Below are positions 4,459 through 30,945 of a stretch of 48,590 bases of DNA, piece after piece. How positions within the stretch are numbered: the stretch's first letter is position 1; each line of letters starts with the position of its first letter. The notes below the pieces were generated by a model that saw only the letters and a list, made by a program, of their open reading frames with translations, searched no databases and was not told the DNA's origin. The position numbers and the translations under genes are program-made. This DNA is from Alphaproteobacteria bacterium (lineage in GTDB: Bacteria > Pseudomonadota > Alphaproteobacteria > Rhizobiales > JAKIUO01): assembly GCA_024279115.1 (NCBI GenBank), contig JAJRRW010000090.1, positions 1 to 48,590 of the forward strand, written 5' to 3'.

Positions 4459-4629
4459 GCTCTTTGCCACGGACCGGTTTGGCTCGCGCCCCGCACATAT
4501 AACCACGCATACTGATGTTTTCAATGAGCCCCAGCAAAAATCCTCTATGGTCTTGAGGGCAAAATTATAGTATGGTCAAGCTCAACACAAAATGCGAAAA
4601 TGACTAACATTCGAGAGAGTATAACATCC

Positions 4630-5732
4630 ATGCAGAAGTTCTTTGCCACCTTGTACGCGCTTGCGATCATCGGAGCGTTTTCAAGCGCCGCCAAAGCTGA
4701 TATCTCAATTGCAGCGGTTGCGCCACTGACCGGCCAATATGCAAGTTTCGGCAAACAGATCAAGGATGGGGCGCAAATGGCCGTCAAGGATATCAATGCT
4801 GCTGGCGGTATCCTTGGACAAAAAATCAAACTCTTGATCGAAGATGATGCCTGCGATCCCAAACAAGCCGTTGCGATCGCTAATAAAGTGGCGGGAGCCG
4901 GTGTTGTTTTTGTGGCTGGTCACTTCTGCTCGGGATCGTCTATTCCCGCTTCAAAAGTATATGAAGAAGAAGGGATCGTGCAGATCTCCCCCGCCTCCAC
5001 CAATCCTAAATTTACCGATGAAGGCGGTCCTAATATTTTCCGTGTTTGCGGCCGCGATGACCAGCAAGGCGCCACCGCTGCTGCCTATATCGTCAAGAAT
5101 TTCAAGGACAATAAAATAGCGGTCTTGCACGATAAAACGGCTTATGGAAAAGGTCTGGCCGACCAGACGCGCCTGGCAATGCAAAAACTGGGTAAGAAGG
5201 CCGACATGTACGAAGCCATCACGGCTGGCGAAAAGACTATACCGCCCTGGTCACAAAAATGAAGGCCGCCAAAATCGAATATGTCTATCTGGGCGGGTAT
5301 CACACCGAGGCCGGACTGATCATCCGCCAGATGCGCGATCAGGGCATGAGCGCCACGCTGATCAGCGGAGATGCCCTTGTCACCAACGAATTCTGGTCGA
5401 TTACCGGCGACGCAGGTGAAGGCACGCTGATGACGTTCTCACCTGACCCCCGCAAAAATCCCGTTGCAGCACCGTTGGTCAAGCGCTTTCGCGATGCGGG
5501 CATCGAACCTGAAGGCTATGTGCTGTACACTTATGCAGCCGTACAGGTCTGGAAACAGGCGGCCGAACAAGCCGGCACAGTTGATCCTGCCAAGGTCACC
5601 GCAGCCCTTCATTCAGACACGGTATTTGATACCGTGCTCGCCAAACTGTCGTTTGACAAAAAGGGAGACGTGAGCCTGCCTGGCTATGTCTTTTATAAAT
5701 GGTCAAAGGGCCAGTATGATTACGTTAAATAG
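4630..5732 (+). pseudogene. livK: Branched-chain amino-acid binding protein LivK/LivJ, interrupted by a -1 frameshift
   Basis: The two halves lie in different frames. 4630-5262 encodes a signal peptide (MQKFFATLYALAIIGAFSSA, cut after AKA), the start of the mature domain (APLTGQYASFGKQI) and the two cysteines of the family disulfide (DDAC, GHFC). The second half, ending at 5732, continues from DYTALVTKMKAAKIEYVYLGGYH to the normal C-terminus. The join is at 5231-5235, where an A run has four bases; a fifth A would restore E-K-D-Y and give about 367 residues, the normal length. As read, translation stops at 5262, after about 210 residues. The cause may be a real deletion or a homopolymer sequencing error. 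Start choice: ATG 4630 follows GAGAG; the ATG at 4600 would place ten polar residues before the signal peptide. Confidence 0.9.
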
Positions 5733-23874: not shown

Positions 23875-26800
23875 CTATTTCAGCGTACTGGTGGTTTGCG
23901 GACCGCCGGTTTTATCAAGGCGCTGCCCGAACGCCTTGATAAAGGCTTCCAGCGTATCAATGTCGGCAATATCGCGGGCCAGGCGGCCAACGGCTCTTGC
24001 ATTGGAGCGAAGCGGCCCGGTTATCATCGCGAAAGCTTTGGCATCGATGCCACGAGCCATTTTGTCCCCATATTTATCGCGCAACCGGTCGACGCCGAGC
24101 TGGTCACTGCCAAGCGTATAGGAAATAGCGGCTCGCAACACTTGCACGCGCGCCTTGGCAGGCAGCTCACCGGGCATCTGCCATCGAGCACCAAGCAGCT
24201 TTTCATACTGCTCGCCAGCCTGTGTCCACTTCTCCCCATTCCACAGCGCCAGTGACTTGATCTCGCCAGCTTCACCACTATCATCATTGGCCAGTAACTC
24301 CAGCACCGGACCAGAGCGTCCAAGCTCGGCATAGGCCCTTGCCTCAAGCAACCGGCGCGCCGAACGCACATGGGCGGGCAAATTTGGCTGACGTGTCTTA
24401 TAAATGGCTTTCAATGCCTTTTTGGGGCGGTGTTGCAGCAGATGGACCATCGCCAAACGAATAGCGACCTGCGCCCGCCCGGCCCCTTTCAGACGCCGTG
24501 TGACCTGATGTTCCAGTAATCCAGCTGCCTTATCAAGCAAATCAACCTTGATGAGCCGATCGGCAAGACGGCGGATCATTTCATCCCCCAAACGTCCCGG
24601 CGGGGTCATATGTTTATGGTCATAAAACAGCGCCAGCGCCTTGATGGGTGGCAAATCGTCTGCCTTGTCTTGCAAAAACAAATCCTGAAACTGTGTTTTC
24701 ATGCGGTCTTGCAAAGCCAGGGCTCGCGGCGAACGCGGAAAGGCTTTCACGGTGGTTTTCATCAAGGAAAACGCCTCATTATAACGCCCTTTGGCCAGGT
24801 GCAAATCCGCCAGGCGATACAGAACTTCCAGTTCCACATCATCCCCTCGCCAGACGATTGATAATCGCTCCAATATATCTATTCCAGCATCTGGTTTCAG
24901 CTCTCCGGTGCGCAGCCGCAAGTCCGTCAAGCGAAAAACCGCTTTGGCGGTCACCGGGCGAATATCGGCTTTGGTTGCATCTGCATAAAGCTGCAGGGCT
25001 TCGCGAGGACGGTTTTGCAACTCCATCAGCCGCCCTTCAAGAAACCGGGCCATAGCCGTTTGCAAAGGAGTGATCCCCGTCTTGGGTATGCTATCAAGCT
25101 CAGAGCCTGCCAGAATGGGGTCCTTTTTTTCGATGGCGACATCGGCGCCAACCAGACGGAACATCGCCTGGCGACGAGGTAAATAGGACTTGATGACCGG
25201 TTCGCCCCTATTCATCTCGGCCAGGGCACGGTCGTAATTTTTCAGCTTGTAAGCCGTCACCCCTCGCCAAAGAGCTGCGTGCGGATTATTTTCCAGATCG
25301 TTGGCATTGAGATCTTCTTCCGCCACCTTATAGCGCCTTAACAATATATTGGAGATGCCGCGCAAAAGCCGGAATACCGGATCTTTGATGACTTCTTCGT
25401 CTTCGGCGGCGGCAATTTCCAGCATGCCAAGCGCTTCGGGGGCAAATCCGCGAGACAGCCAATGCTGTACCAGCTCAAGACGCGCCCGCCGTTGAGCCCG
25501 CCCGCTCTTGGTAACGATCTGCTGCTCAAGCGCGAGGGTCCGTTTGATGAATTTGCCCCGATCGACACTTGTGCTGGCATTGAATATAAGTTTACGGGAC
25601 AAAATGCGCCGTTTGGTACTTGGTTTTTCCGCCTCTGTGATTATTTTTTGCAGATCACCCGAGAGGTATAATCCATCGACACCGCTGATCTTCAGCCCCT
25701 GCTCCGAATTTGTGACGCGCAAGCTGTCGGACAAAGGCCGCACAACAATTCCGTGAATAGTCTGAAAAATCTGAAATTCCACGTGATCATGAATGTTTTT
25801 TATACTTTTGGCCGGTCCCTTGCTGGTCAAAACCAACAGATCATCACCACTTAGCCGATCTCTAATCTGGTGCAAGCGTCCTGTCGCCGTGGTGGCAATG
25901 AAGACTTCTTCAACGCCAGAGCTACTGATCCGCTTGGCTGGCTTGAAACGCTTTGAACCACCTGTAACAAGATCGCCAATACTGATATTCCAGTTGACAT
26001 TTCTTTGGGAAACAGACGAAAGCCATGGCCCTGAAAGCTGAAATTCAAAGAGCTGGCTGTTCTCAAGCATGGTCTGGCGAACTTCATTGACGATGCCACC
26101 AAGCTGCGCTTTCAGCCCCGTCATATCAATTTTTTTGGCGCTGTCCAATAACACCCACAATGTTTCATTGCGCTGGAATATGGCTGCCGCTATTTTCTGT
26201 TTCTCGAACGGAAACCGCAATTGCACGCTATTTTCATTGCGGACGATTTCTATTTTATTACTATTTTGTTTGACCACTGGCGCGGTCGCTGGCTTGGCGG
26301 CCCCGCCCTTTTGTGCGAGCGGATTAAAACTTGCGCGAGGCGCCGCCTGGTTTTGAGCAGGCGGACTTTTGAGCGCTGGGGAGGCATTTACAGCCGGTTT
26401 GAGCGCCGCTTGAGGCTTTGTTTTTGGATCGACAGTCGCAGCTCGGCCATCCCCGGCGAGGATGACTGTTCCAGGAAGTTTTGCGTCCGGTTTCCCGTCG
26501 TTTTTGCGGTCCAGGACGGGAGCCTTTACAATTTTTACCGGCGCGAGCTGTGGTTCGTTCTTGGTGATACTTGTTTTTTGTTCGCGAGCCGCCTCACTCT
26601 TTTGGCTGTCTTGCCCAGAACGCGCTGGCAGTGGCGGGGAAAGCTTTGGCGATGGCGCGGGGTTCCCGTTGTTGCGATCAGCAACAACGTTTGCCTCTTG
26701 CACGCGTTTTACTGGCGCATCATAGCCTTGTGCTGCGCTATCAGGTAGCGACACCTCCTCCAGTTTTTTTTGTTTTGCGGCCACGGTATCGGGCGCCGCA

Positions 26801-27654
26801 GCAGCGTAAAGCTTGCGCTCGATGTCGGACAGTTTCAAGGGCGTGTTGATGGTCAGGTCGACCACATAATTTTGCCCCTCGCGAAAAGCACGTATCTTGG
26901 TTCCAGCCGTGACTTCCATGATGATTTTCAGGCTTTTGGGCCCCGTTTTATGACGAATATTCTTCAGGTTCGATGGGGGATTTATTCTAAGGTAAGCCAG
27001 ATCAGGGGTGGCTCGTCCCCCAAACAAAATAATCACATTGTTGCCCTTGCGGGTGAACTGGGCGGTTACGAATCTGTTCCAGTTGAACGAAATCCGATGA
27101 AAGGTCGGCTGTTCGGCATAATGAACCTCAACCAGCAATGGTTCCGCCTGTAGCGCTTCCTGGCGCTCTTGTTCCTGAGCAGCCAAACGTGCTTTTTCGA
27201 CCTCTTTGGCGAGTTTGTCGACAATATCTTGCGGGATGCCGGGAGGACGTCCTCTCCAGTTTTTCGACAAAAAATCAACCACCAGATAGTTGCCCGCCTT
27301 TAGCACACTCACCTTGTAGTCGCGCACCATGGCAAACCGCAAACCATACCCATCTGGATCACGGCGCGCGATGGTCAGCACATTGGGTAGCTTGGCAGCA
27401 ACAGCTCCCAGATCTACAGCGACGGATTTTTTAAATTTGAGAACAAAAACGGTTGAGATGGTTTTCGAAGAATATTCCGGCAGACGATCAAAACTGAAAA
27501 CAAGACGGGCGAAACCCTTTTGTTCACGAATATCCAGCGTCGCTTGTCTATCACTGGCCCATCCAGCTCCCACGCTTAGCGATAGCACAATGGCTGCCAG
27601 CAAGGCGACAAAGCTGTTTTGGGCGTATTTCCAGTTGACAATCATCAGGTGCAA
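23875..27654 (-). CDS. Large secreted beta-domain/TPR protein of the flagellar cluster, function unknown
   Basis: 1259 residues. A signal peptide (NSFVALLAAIVLSLSVGAGWA, cut before SDRQ) points to the periplasm. Four beta-rich stretches of roughly 100 residues follow, of AMIN-like appearance (FARLVFSFDRLPEYS; FHRISFNWNRFVTAQF; VQLRFPFEKQKIAAAIF; and one near residue 575-680), with a charged helix at about 140-172 and a Pro/Ala/Lys linker at about 300-455. From about 700 onward are TPR-like helix pairs (AALWRGVTAYKLKNYDRALAEMNRG; VLYRLADLHLAKGRYNEAFSLM). It lies downstream of fliL-fliM-DUF6468-motE after a 201-base gap with a possible weak terminator, so it may be part of that operon or separate. 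I recall TPR genes at this position in other alphaproteobacteria, but no tested function. A periplasmic motor or stator scaffold is only an inference. Confidence 0.8.
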   Translation of the reverse strand: MHLMIVNWKYAQNSFVALLAAIVLSLSVGAGWASDRQATLDIREQKGFARLVFSFDRLPEYSSKTISTVFVLKFKKSVAVDLGAVAAKLPNVLTIARRDPDGYGLRFAMVRDYKVSVLKAGNYLVVDFLSKNWRGRPPGIPQDIVDKLAKEVEKARLAAQEQERQEALQAEPLLVEVHYAEQPTFHRISFNWNRFVTAQFTRKGNNVIILFGGRATPDLAYLRINPPSNLKNIRHKTGPKSLKIIMEVTAGTKIRAFREGQNYVVDLTINTPLKLSDIERKLYAAAAPDTVAAKQKKLEEVSLPDSAAQGYDAPVKRVQEANVVADRNNGNPAPSPKLSPPLPARSGQDSQKSEAAREQKTSITKNEPQLAPVKIVKAPVLDRKNDGKPDAKLPGTVILAGDGRAATVDPKTKPQAALKPAVNASPALKSPPAQNQAAPRASFNPLAQKGGAAKPATAPVVKQNSNKIEIVRNENSVQLRFPFEKQKIAAAIFQRNETLWVLLDSAKKIDMTGLKAQLGGIVNEVRQTMLENSQLFEFQLSGPWLSSVSQRNVNWNISIGDLVTGGSKRFKPAKRISSSGVEEVFIATTATGRLHQIRDRLSGDDLLVLTSKGPAKSIKNIHDHVEFQIFQTIHGIVVRPLSDSLRVTNSEQGLKISGVDGLYLSGDLQKIITEAEKPSTKRRILSRKLIFNASTSVDRGKFIKRTLALEQQIVTKSGRAQRRARLELVQHWLSRGFAPEALGMLEIAAAEDEEVIKDPVFRLLRGISNILLRRYKVAEEDLNANDLENNPHAALWRGVTAYKLKNYDRALAEMNRGEPVIKSYLPRRQAMFRLVGADVAIEKKDPILAGSELDSIPKTGITPLQTAMARFLEGRLMELQNRPREALQLYADATKADIRPVTAKAVFRLTDLRLRTGELKPDAGIDILERLSIVWRGDDVELEVLYRLADLHLAKGRYNEAFSLMKTTVKAFPRSPRALALQDRMKTQFQDLFLQDKADDLPPIKALALFYDHKHMTPPGRLGDEMIRRLADRLIKVDLLDKAAGLLEHQVTRRLKGAGRAQVAIRLAMVHLLQHRPKKALKAIYKTRQPNLPAHVRSARRLLEARAYAELGRSGPVLELLANDDSGEAGEIKSLALWNGEKWTQAGEQYEKLLGARWQMPGELPAKARVQVLRAAISYTLGSDQLGVDRLRDKYGDKMARGIDAKAFAMITGPLRSNARAVGRLARDIADIDTLEAFIKAFGQRLDKTGGPQTTSTLK

Positions 27655-27822
27655 GGCCCCATCGAGGTGCTTATAATTTTAAAAACCACGCCACTGCACT
27701 CAACAAGCTTTTCATTCGAATCATCTTCAAGTCTAGTCCGCTGGCCGTTGGTGGCAAGTTAATCGAGGCACCATCGGCAAAAAGCAACGGACTTATCACC
27801 GGAAAACGCTCATCATATGCCA

Positions 27823-27847
27823 AAACCACCCCGCCCATCCAGGCGGG
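27823..27847 (-). terminator. Possible weak terminator or attenuator after motE
   Basis: On the minus strand CCCGCC and GGCGGG form a short stem followed by GTGGTTTTGG, nine bases after the motE stop. The T run is poor, so some read-through into the TPR gene is likely. Confidence 0.4.
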
Positions 27848-27855
27848 TTGCGTTG

Positions 27856-28563
27856 CTAATTGCCTTTTATTTTTGGAAGGTTATCGAGATTTTGCTCAGT
27901 GAATTTTTGTTGCGTCATACCGGCCAGAGAAATGGTCATTTCGCGCGCTTTAGCAGGAGCCATGGCCGCCAGAATAGCTGACATAGCCTGTGGCTTCATA
28001 TTTTTTATAATCCCCAACAGCACGTTTTTATCCAGTTCATTGAAAATACGCGCCGCCCCCTTGGGCTTCATGGAGGAATACATTTTGACCAGCATGTCGA
28101 ACTGGCTCTTTTTTTGCTCTTTTTGCACCTTGGCAAACCGCTGAATTTTAGTCTCCAGCCCTTTGAGCATAGCAATACGCTGATCGACACGTTTTTCCGC
28201 AGCCTTGATCAGATTAAGACGCAAACCAAGTTCTTTTTCACGAGCGTTCAACTGCTCGCGGCGCTTTGCCAGACTGGTCAGCAAACCGATCTCGGCTTTC
28301 GATTGATTGCCCTCACCGTTCAGGCTTTTTATGTCTTTGGGGGGGGCTTTAACCGCGCCAATTCTTTTTGCCGCCAGGCCCGCATCTTTGATTTTTGGTT
28401 GGCCATCGGGGGTGCCGGGGGGGCTATCAGCTATTGCCTTTGCAATTGACGTTTTCGACCCCGTCACCATATTTTTGTCCCCCAGCATCAGCCCCGCCAT
28501 TTTCAAGGCCAGCAGAGAAAAAGCTGCCAGGGCAACAAGAGGTAAAAAGCGCACCGGTTTCAT
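27856..28563 (-). CDS. motE: MotE-type flagellar motor chaperone (MgtE-N domain)
   Basis: 235 residues. An N-terminal hydrophobic segment (RFLPLVALAAFSLLALKMAGLML, residues 4-26) acts as signal or anchor, a coiled coil covers about residues 85-160, and the C-terminal MgtE-N-like domain reads AARIFNELDKNVLLGIIKNMKPQAMSAILAAM. In Sinorhizobium, MotE is a periplasmic chaperone for the motility protein MotC; no MotC gene is in this window. The start codon overlaps the upstream stop by one base (TAATG), showing tight coupling with the DUF6468-like gene. Confidence 0.82.
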   Translation of the reverse strand: MKPVRFLPLVALAAFSLLALKMAGLMLGDKNMVTGSKTSIAKAIADSPPGTPDGQPKIKDAGLAAKRIGAVKAPPKDIKSLNGEGNQSKAEIGLLTSLAKRREQLNAREKELGLRLNLIKAAEKRVDQRIAMLKGLETKIQRFAKVQKEQKKSQFDMLVKMYSSMKPKGAARIFNELDKNVLLGIIKNMKPQAMSAILAAMAPAKAREMTISLAGMTQQKFTEQNLDNLPKIKGN

Positions 28564-29072
28564 TAAAAGGCTCCCTTTGTATTGGCCACCAGACCCTTGG
28601 CGGACGGCAAGCCAGACGCCCCCGCATCATGATCAAGATCTTCAAAGCCAAGCATTGAATTACGCAAATCAATCGCCGTATGTTCAATTGCCTGTGTCGC
28701 GTGTGTCGCATTACCGCCGTTAGAGGGGCGCTGGCTCGTATCGGCGCGCCCTATCAAGATGACAAGCTTGCTCATGGTCTGCTCGGCACTTTCGATCTCG
28801 CCTTTCAACAAGCGGTTCATATTGCGCCCCTTGTCGATCTGCCCAGCCAGTTCATCACCAGAATCCTGAACGGTGGCGCGCAACCCCTGAATAGCCTTGT
28901 CAGCACTGCTTGTCGCGGCCGAAAGCTCACGAATGAACTGATGCATGCCTTGTTGGTCATCACGCAAGCGCTCCAGTTTTCGATTGACGCTGATGCAATA
29001 AAAAATTGTCGCAACCAGAAGGATCGAGACAAGCCCTTCAACGATCAATCCAAGAGAACCTTCAATCATCAT
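28563..29072 (-). CDS. DUF6468-like flagellar-operon membrane protein
   Basis: 169 residues with one N-terminal membrane helix (LGLIVEGLVSILLVATIFYCI, residues 7-27) and then a long, mostly helical domain: RKLERLRDDQQGMHQFIREL ... ATSSADKAIQGLRATVQD, a probable coiled coil. The remainder is loosely structured and ends in GAF. I recognise it as the DUF6468 type found after fliM in alphaproteobacteria; its function is not known to me. A topology with the coiled coil in the cytoplasm is only a guess. Two tandem ATGs (29072, 29069) follow AGGTGA. It lies 77 bases after fliM. Confidence 0.75.
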   Translation of the reverse strand: MMIEGSLGLIVEGLVSILLVATIFYCISVNRKLERLRDDQQGMHQFIRELSAATSSADKAIQGLRATVQDSGDELAGQIDKGRNMNRLLKGEIESAEQTMSKLVILIGRADTSQRPSNGGNATHATQAIEHTAIDLRNSMLGFEDLDHDAGASGLPSAKGLVANTKGAF

Positions 29073-29149: not shown

Positions 29150-30385
29150 CTATCCAGCCACCGGCTCCGCAACGGCACCACTGGCGGCCCCGTCCGTCAT
29201 GCCAATTTGACGATCAAGACGAATGGCAACATGGCCGTTTTTACTGCCCATCATCCCCTCGCCCAATGTAATATTCCCACTTTTGATGCTGATCAGTTCA
29301 TCAGGCGCACATTCCAGCATAACCGTATCTCCGACTTGCAATGTCATTAGTCGCTGCAACGGCATACTCATTTCAGACAATATTGCTTCAATCGGCAATT
29401 CTGTATTCCAGATCTCGTGGGCCAAATGCTCTTCCCAGATTGCATCATTGCCAAATTTTTCCCCCATGAACCCTTGCAGCAACAATTCTCTGATGGGTTC
29501 CAGAGTGGACAAAGGCAGCACCACCTCGATGCGCCCGCCCCGGTCTTCCATATCGATCCGCAGTTCGACCCGGATGGCGGCATTGGATTCTCTGGCAATG
29601 GTTGCAAAGCGCGGATTGGTCTCTAGCCGGTCAAGCTTGAACGAGACCGGCGACAGCGGCCGAAAAGCGTTCTCGGTATCTTCTAGAATGACCTCGATCA
29701 TGCGCTTGACGAGATTGGTCTCGATGGTTGTATAGGGCCGCCCCTCAATGCGAATAGCGTCTGAACCACGCCCGCCCAGCAACACATCCACAATGGAGTA
29801 AATCAAATTGGACTCAACCGTTACCATGCCAAAATTATCCCATTCTTTGGCATGAAAAACAGCCAGCATGGCTGGCAGAGGGATCGAATTCATATATTCG
29901 CCAAAGCGGATCGTGGTGATTGCGTCAAGGGTCACCTCCACATTGTCAGACGTGAAATTGCGCAAGCTGGTTGTCAATAAACGCACCAGTCGGTCAAAGA
30001 TAATTTCAAGCATTGGCAGGCGTTCATAAGAGACCACACCTGAATTCAAAATGGCTTTTATGCCGCTTAGGTTTTTATCGCTACTTTCACTTGCCTTAAA
30101 TCCCAAAAGGCTGTCGATTTCACCTTGTGAAAGAAGTCTTGCTGCGCGCTCGCCCGAGCTTTCATCCATGCCGCCATCGACCAGTGAGGCCCATTGCGCT
30201 GCCACATCACCCCCACCGTCATCATCATCGCCTTCCATACCAAGGTCAGCGCCCCAGGCGGCAGCAAGGTCATCTTGCTCCCCCCCCTCATCCATGATGC
30301 CGATATCTCCATCGTCATCGAGGTCCATGCCCTCACCCCATGCATCGGCCAATGCATCCTGGTCTTCATCACCACCTGAAGTCAT
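29150..30385 (-). CDS. fliM: Flagellar motor switch protein FliM
   Basis: 411 residues. The CheY-binding peptide LSQGEIDSLLGF, normally at the extreme N-terminus, is at residues 85-96. The CheC-like middle domain (YERLPMLEIIFDRLVRLLT ... NPRFATIARESN) and the FliN-like C-terminal domain (LQVGDTVMLECAPDELISIKSGN) follow as usual. The first 84 residues are very acidic and contain three related units: DQDALADAWGEGMDLDDD (8-25), EQDDLAAAWGADLGMEGDD (36-54) and DVAAQWASLVDGG (60-72). FliM forms the C ring with FliG and FliN. It is preceded by fliL (53-base gap). The extension may hold extra response-regulator docking sites (inference). Confidence 0.95.
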   Translation of the reverse strand: MTSGGDEDQDALADAWGEGMDLDDDGDIGIMDEGGEQDDLAAAWGADLGMEGDDDDGGGDVAAQWASLVDGGMDESSGERAARLLSQGEIDSLLGFKASESSDKNLSGIKAILNSGVVSYERLPMLEIIFDRLVRLLTTSLRNFTSDNVEVTLDAITTIRFGEYMNSIPLPAMLAVFHAKEWDNFGMVTVESNLIYSIVDVLLGGRGSDAIRIEGRPYTTIETNLVKRMIEVILEDTENAFRPLSPVSFKLDRLETNPRFATIARESNAAIRVELRIDMEDRGGRIEVVLPLSTLEPIRELLLQGFMGEKFGNDAIWEEHLAHEIWNTELPIEAILSEMSMPLQRLMTLQVGDTVMLECAPDELISIKSGNITLGEGMMGSKNGHVAIRLDRQIGMTDGAASGAVAEPVAG

Positions 30386-30438: not shown

Positions 30439-30945
30439 TTACTGGATGATAATTTCCTTAAACAGCACGCGCTTTATTTCGGCGGGATGAATGGTGATAT
30501 TGATCCGTCGCATCAATTCGTTTTTCAACCGATAAACGCCCGCCGACCCTTCCAGATCAGAGCGCCGCATCTCGCGCAGATAAATTTGAAACATGTCCTG
30601 AATTCGGGGCATTTTCGGCGTCAGCGCGTCGATATTTTTTTGACTGTCAGCTTCAATGGCGATCTTCAACTTGAGATATTGTGGCCGCTTGCGTCCCGAT
30701 GCCAGATTGACCACCATTTCAGGAATGTCGAAATAAACAGAGGGCGCTTGAGCCTCACTTTTACTGCTATCCATAGAGCCACCACCAAACAGACCCATAA
30801 AATAGGCTCCGCCACCGCCACCAAGAAGAAGGACAACAGCGCCGATGGCAATCATCATCATCGGCAGCTTCTTCTTCGCGTCTTCTTTCGCGCCTTCTTC
30901 ACCATCACCGCCTTCTTCATCGCTGACGTCATCTGTCTTCGCCAT
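30439..30945 (-). CDS. fliL: Flagellar basal-body protein FliL
   Basis: 168 residues: an acidic cytoplasmic tail (residues 1-25), one membrane helix (LPMMMIAIGAVVLLLGGGGGAYFMGLF, about 27-53), and the periplasmic FliL domain (YFDIPEMVVNLAS ... YLKLKIAIEAD ... LKNELMRRINITI). FliL rings surround the stator and raise torque. It is the first gene of the minus-strand set; its promoter must lie in the 30946-31258 gap shared with flgF. No convincing minus-strand sigma-54 site was found there. Confidence 0.94.
   Translation of the reverse strand: MAKTDDVSDEEGGDGEEGAKEDAKKKLPMMMIAIGAVVLLLGGGGGAYFMGLFGGGSMDSSKSEAQAPSVYFDIPEMVVNLASGRKRPQYLKLKIAIEADSQKNIDALTPKMPRIQDMFQIYLREMRRSDLEGSAGVYRLKNELMRRINITIHPAEIKRVLFKEIIIQ

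Follow-up and report, generated by a model that had tools for sequence, protein, structure and literature searches.

A putatively secreted protein with three AMIN domains and a TPR solenoid, encoded next to motE, is a probable FssB/MotK-type spoke of the flagellar motor in Alphaproteobacteria

Three periplasmic or secreted TPR proteins required for flagellar rotation, or located in the motor, have been described next to the MotE system. FssB (CC_2058) of Caulobacter crescentus was described in 2021: ΔfssB cells possess flagella and are non-motile, as are ΔmotB cells, and stator function is impaired (PMC7885107). MotK of Cereibacter sphaeroides was described in 2024; it is required for rotation, binds MotE and MotB2, and is found at the flagellated pole in a stator-dependent manner, and the stability of MotE depends on it (PMC10954123). 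That study looked by BLAST for similarity of MotK to the Caulobacter proteins and found none (PMC10954123). PflA of Campylobacter jejuni consists of an N-terminal AMIN-like β-sandwich, a flexible linker, and 16–17 TPRs (PMC12222027, PMC11870540), and has been resolved in the motor with its C-terminal end directed to the axis (PMC12222027). PflA spokes contact FlgY, the homologue of MotE (PMC11870540), and connect the FlgY E-ring with the stator scaffold, a link between PflA spokes and the MotE E-ring that was reported in 2025–2026 (PMC11870540, PMC13023049). In addition, MotC of Sinorhizobium meliloti, as cited in PMC13023049, is described as a periplasmic TPR partner of MotE.

We analyzed a 48,590-nucleotide stretch of alphaproteobacterial DNA (the window), in which a 1259-aa protein is encoded by the last minus-strand gene of a cluster after fliL, fliM, DUF6468, and motE (Table 1), confirming the reading frame and neighbors given in an earlier note on this DNA. 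In the alphaproteobacterial flagellar motor, the protein is very probably a spoke of the FssB/MotK type and a functional counterpart of Campylobacter PflA. The features of such a spoke were present: an N-terminal AMIN-type domain (AlphaFold2, Foldseek, and Z scores), a C-terminal TPR solenoid (Pfam, AlphaFold2, and Foldseek), and a gene adjoining motE in the fliL–fliM cluster.

Table 1. Features of the 1259-aa protein and its gene cluster (window coordinates)
Feature	Residues	Coordinates	Strand	Basis or remark
FssB/MotK-type secreted AMIN-TPR protein gene (probable)	1–1259	23875..27654	(-)	1259 aa, TTG start
Putative Sec-type signal peptide	1–34	27553..27654	(-)	Sequence pattern
AMIN domain 1	36–135	27250..27549	(-)	AlphaFold2; AmiC 4bin Z 12.4
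Long helix linking AMIN1 to AMIN2	142–170	27145..27231	(-)	AlphaFold2
AMIN domain 2	172–272	26839..27141	(-)	AlphaFold2; PilQ 4av2/4aqz Z 11.2; homologous to AMIN1
Poorly conserved Ala/Pro/Lys-rich linker	280–460	26275..26817	(-)	Composition, conservation
AMIN-type domain 3	465–562	25969..26262	(-)	AlphaFold2; profile match to AMIN2 E 1.2e-10
Fourth beta domain	568–668	25651..25953	(-)	AlphaFold2; not AMIN by profile
TPR alpha-solenoid	695–1240	23935..25572	(-)	Pfam TPR, AlphaFold2, Foldseek
Most conserved solenoid patch	1001–1115	24310..24654	(-)	Conservation; candidate partner-binding site
Promoter-like pair TTGCCA/TAGACT		27730..27757	(-)	Consensus match only; before the 1259-aa protein gene
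motE (FlgY/FlbB/E-ring type, MgtE_N domain)		27856..28563	(-)	Profile matches
DUF6468 gene		28563..29072	(-)	1-base overlap with motE
fliM		29150..30385	(-)	Profile matches
fliL		30439..30945	(-)	Profile matches

The gene is present in a single copy in the genome, and its reading frame is open in all family members examined. The TTG start codon is followed by an ATG three codons downstream, and the congeners have ATG at the position of the TTG. The N-terminus reads MIVNWKYAQNSFVALLAAIVLSLSVGAGWA, followed by SD after the presumed cleavage, and by eye has the appearance of a Sec signal peptide, from which the protein looks to be secreted and periplasmic. The gene is separated from motE by a 201-base gap, and the promoter-like pair within it is largely kept in three congeners, so the gene may have a transcript of its own besides being transcribed with the cluster. 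A terminator-like hairpin just 3′ of motE (27830–27847) was discarded because it is missing in the three congeners.

Structure prediction, which the earlier note had recommended, resolved the protein into beta domains, a linker, and a TPR solenoid and refined its anatomy. The AlphaFold2 models, built with 28–29 homologues, had a pLDDT of 91.2 for the N-terminal half and 84.6 for the beta/TPR half. Residues ~36–130 and ~175–268 each form an eight-stranded domain with one short helix (pLDDT 91), and the second half contains beta domains at 469–560 and 573–658 and a helical-repeat solenoid at ~699–1248. Profile comparison showed that domains 1, 2, and 3 are homologous repeats (1–2, E 2e-10; 2–3, E 1e-10; 1–3, E 4e-6), while no relation of domain 4 to these three was detectable; the protein thus carries three AMIN domains plus one other beta domain. 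The earlier note had counted about four AMIN-like domains, and we rejected the fourth, which is left unmatched by profile comparison. The Pro/Ala linker and the long TPR array described in that note were both borne out. The linker, ~180 residues between AMIN2 and AMIN3 (19% Ala, 13% Pro, and 11% Lys), is the least conserved part of the protein except for the signal peptide. In the solenoid patch 1001–1115, 36 of the 115 positions show an invariance of 90% or more across 25 sequences, compared with 5–14 in the other folded domains, and we propose that this patch is a binding site for a partner. Pfam and NCBIfam searches of the protein returned no named family apart from TPR.

The structural comparisons agree with this anatomy. 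AMIN1 superimposed on the AMIN domain of AmiC (4bin) with a Z score of 12.4 and an rmsd of 2.2 over 100 residues, and the N-terminal model matched the AMIN domains of PilQ (Foldseek E 1.8e-5; PilQ B2, Z 11.2). The best Foldseek match of the beta/TPR model among 350,542 PDB chains was chain K of 9hmf, the periplasmic motor scaffold of C. jejuni (E 8.4e-11), and the second best was an unrelated TPR chain (E 1.4e-7). Chain K has 773 residues, which fits mature PflA, and from this length and the modeling notes in PMC12222027 we infer that it is PflA. TM-scores to this chain were low (0.18–0.19). In VIA-align of the TPR half, 9hmf was absent among the best 50 rows, in which generic solenoids dominated; TPR solenoids are mutually similar, and Z scores near 14 are common for them. 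The margin of 9hmf_K over generic TPR proteins is thus clear in Foldseek and not in VIA-align, and we regard it as support rather than proof. PDB sequence searches returned only generic TPR proteins for the beta/TPR half and no match for the AMIN half. The Foldseek match and the AlphaFold2 anatomy indicate that the protein has the fold of the PflA spoke, in which a beta-sandwich, a linker, and a TPR superhelix follow each other.

PflA is the closest structural match, sharing the N-terminal beta domain, the linker, and the TPRs; however, it has one beta-sandwich in place of four beta domains, and it partners a PflB rim. FssB resembles the window protein as a secreted TPR protein encoded downstream of a motE homologue, CC_2059 (PMC7885107), just as the window gene lies next to motE. 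MotK is described as periplasmic, with AMIN and TPR domains and a gene next to motE/motA, but with ~650 aa and a single AMIN domain as against 1259 aa and three. MotC likewise has TPRs and is described as a periplasmic partner of MotE, but has no reported AMIN domain.

Relatives of the protein differ in the number of AMIN domains. A contig scan for relatives returned only two congeners. Three AMIN domains were found in 28 of 30 loci of the order and two in 20/20 of a Caulobacter-type family, whose members, with a median open frame of 1013 aa, are smaller than the window protein with its third AMIN domain and long linker. This family was so identified since its two sampled members pass flgE_Caulobact (NF040922), a model that matches only Caulobacter among the controls; 88 of its 99 genomes matched the beta/TPR profile, one of them marginally. 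Together with synteny and the published descriptions, this sample suggests that the window protein is an ortholog of FssB. Plasmid-borne relatives showed no or one AMIN domain, although single sequences may conceal diverged domains. In Erythrobacter and Azospirillum, distant named homologues belong to flagellar clusters on plasmids; in Komagataeibacter, they neighbor flagellar genes. On the Erythrobacter aureus plasmid (1559–6674), the order fliL–fliM–DUF6468–motE is repeated, and a 548-aa TPR-only relative lies slightly downstream of motE, past a fliL-like gene and a small ORF. A search of Rhodobacterales plasmids aimed at MotK yielded, in Alloyangia pacifica, a flagellar TPR protein of 615 aa, in which no AMIN domain was found. 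It scored 87 bits against the beta/TPR profile, compared with ~17–20 bits for background TPR paralogues, indicating that sequence homology extends to this protein, a possible MotK.

Our analysis also revealed that the gene tracks flagella, MotE, and DUF6468, the co-occurrence that the earlier note had proposed to examine. The gene is present in 36 of 61 order-level relatives, and the same 36 carry DUF6468 above the cut-off and a full-type FliM (counting as such one draft FliM divided between contigs). Among 289 genomes of the class, in which only confident matches were counted, 151 had the gene together with FliM, 6 had the gene without FliM, 17 had FliM without the gene, and 115 lacked both (Fisher p 2e-53, in which kinship among the genomes makes independence overstated). 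FliM thus accompanies 151 of the 157 confident carriers and MotE 147; of the six carriers without a FliM match, four have flagellar FlhA, and the remaining two are drafts with fragmented assemblies. A high frequency of the gene in genomes lacking flagella, which would speak against a role in the motor, was looked for and not found. Approximately 10% of FliM-positive genomes of the class had no detectable copy of the gene. motE lies directly upstream both in loci of the order and in at least 12 loci of the Caulobacter-type family; of 65 class genomes checked, 56 have motE within 8 kb of the gene. These results establish a conserved, flagellum-restricted protein that combines a TPR solenoid with three AMIN domains and a single additional beta domain; its gene is usually near motE. 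One 6-contig, 100% complete genome carries the gene, MotE, and flagellar FlhA with PF02154 FliM unmatched. DUF6468 itself, matched among the controls only in Caulobacter, is an unstudied small protein linked to flagella; no mention of it was found in the literature searched.

The window protein most likely acts as a radial spoke that links the stators with the MotE E-ring. The solenoid would form the spoke, with the C-terminal patch seated on MotE and the AMIN domains placed peripherally, against peptidoglycan or the stator; gene linkage and co-occurrence with motE would fit E-ring binding, the C-terminus would face the axis by analogy with PflA, and peptidoglycan binding is presumed for the AMIN domains. 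Such a spoke would recruit stators or keep them open, and its loss would thus be expected to leave flagella assembled but paralyzed. Many TPR proteins are chaperones, and MotE stability in C. sphaeroides depends on MotK (PMC10954123), so that the protein might instead act in the periplasm as a chaperone of stator or MotE proteins, or as a factor in their assembly, without belonging to the finished motor, as was once proposed for MotE towards MotC. We consider this unlikely, since MotK occupies the flagellated pole in dependence on stators (PMC10954123) and the structural counterpart PflA is resolved in the motor (PMC12222027).

AMIN domains also occur in PilQ and AmiC, and the solenoid distantly resembles other TPR scaffolds, which would suit a TPR protein with a general link to the cell wall or to secretins, lying beside flagellar genes by chance. 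The near-perfect co-occurrence with FliM, DUF6468, and MotE in the 61 and 289 genomes and the paralysis of mutants of relatives (PMC7885107) already disfavor this explanation, making it very improbable. The spoke reading agrees with the periplasmic motor scaffold suggested in the earlier note, to which the domain folds, the co-occurrence with flagella, and the paralyzed mutants of published relatives lend support. That note's view of an undescribed component has to be given up, as FssB (2021, PMC7885107), MotK (2024, PMC10954123), and the PflA/MotE link (2025–2026) precede it; the protein is probably a genuine motor component of a spoke type already described.

This study adds the three-AMIN architecture, the range of 0–3 AMIN modules across relatives, the single hyper-conserved TPR patch, and the sequence homology to the Rhodobacterales flagellar TPR protein. 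It connects a large and unnamed family of alphaproteobacterial proteins with the E-ring/spoke system, currently regarded as ancestral among bacterial motors, and provides a sequence profile that detects, out to the Rhodobacterales TPR protein, a family that homology searches reportedly recover with difficulty. The conserved patch is a target for mutation. A more speculative, rather doubtful extension is that in this lineage the spoke replaces the rim, the three AMIN domains and long disordered linker reaching from E-ring to peptidoglycan and forming or holding a stator ring without PflB; if true, the layout of the motor scaffold would differ from that of Campylobacter. Elsewhere in the window (4600–5732), two overlapping ORFs each encode part of a periplasmic binding protein for branched-chain amino acids (Peripla_BP_6), covering profile positions 2–164 and 186–339, perhaps owing to a frameshift or an assembly error.
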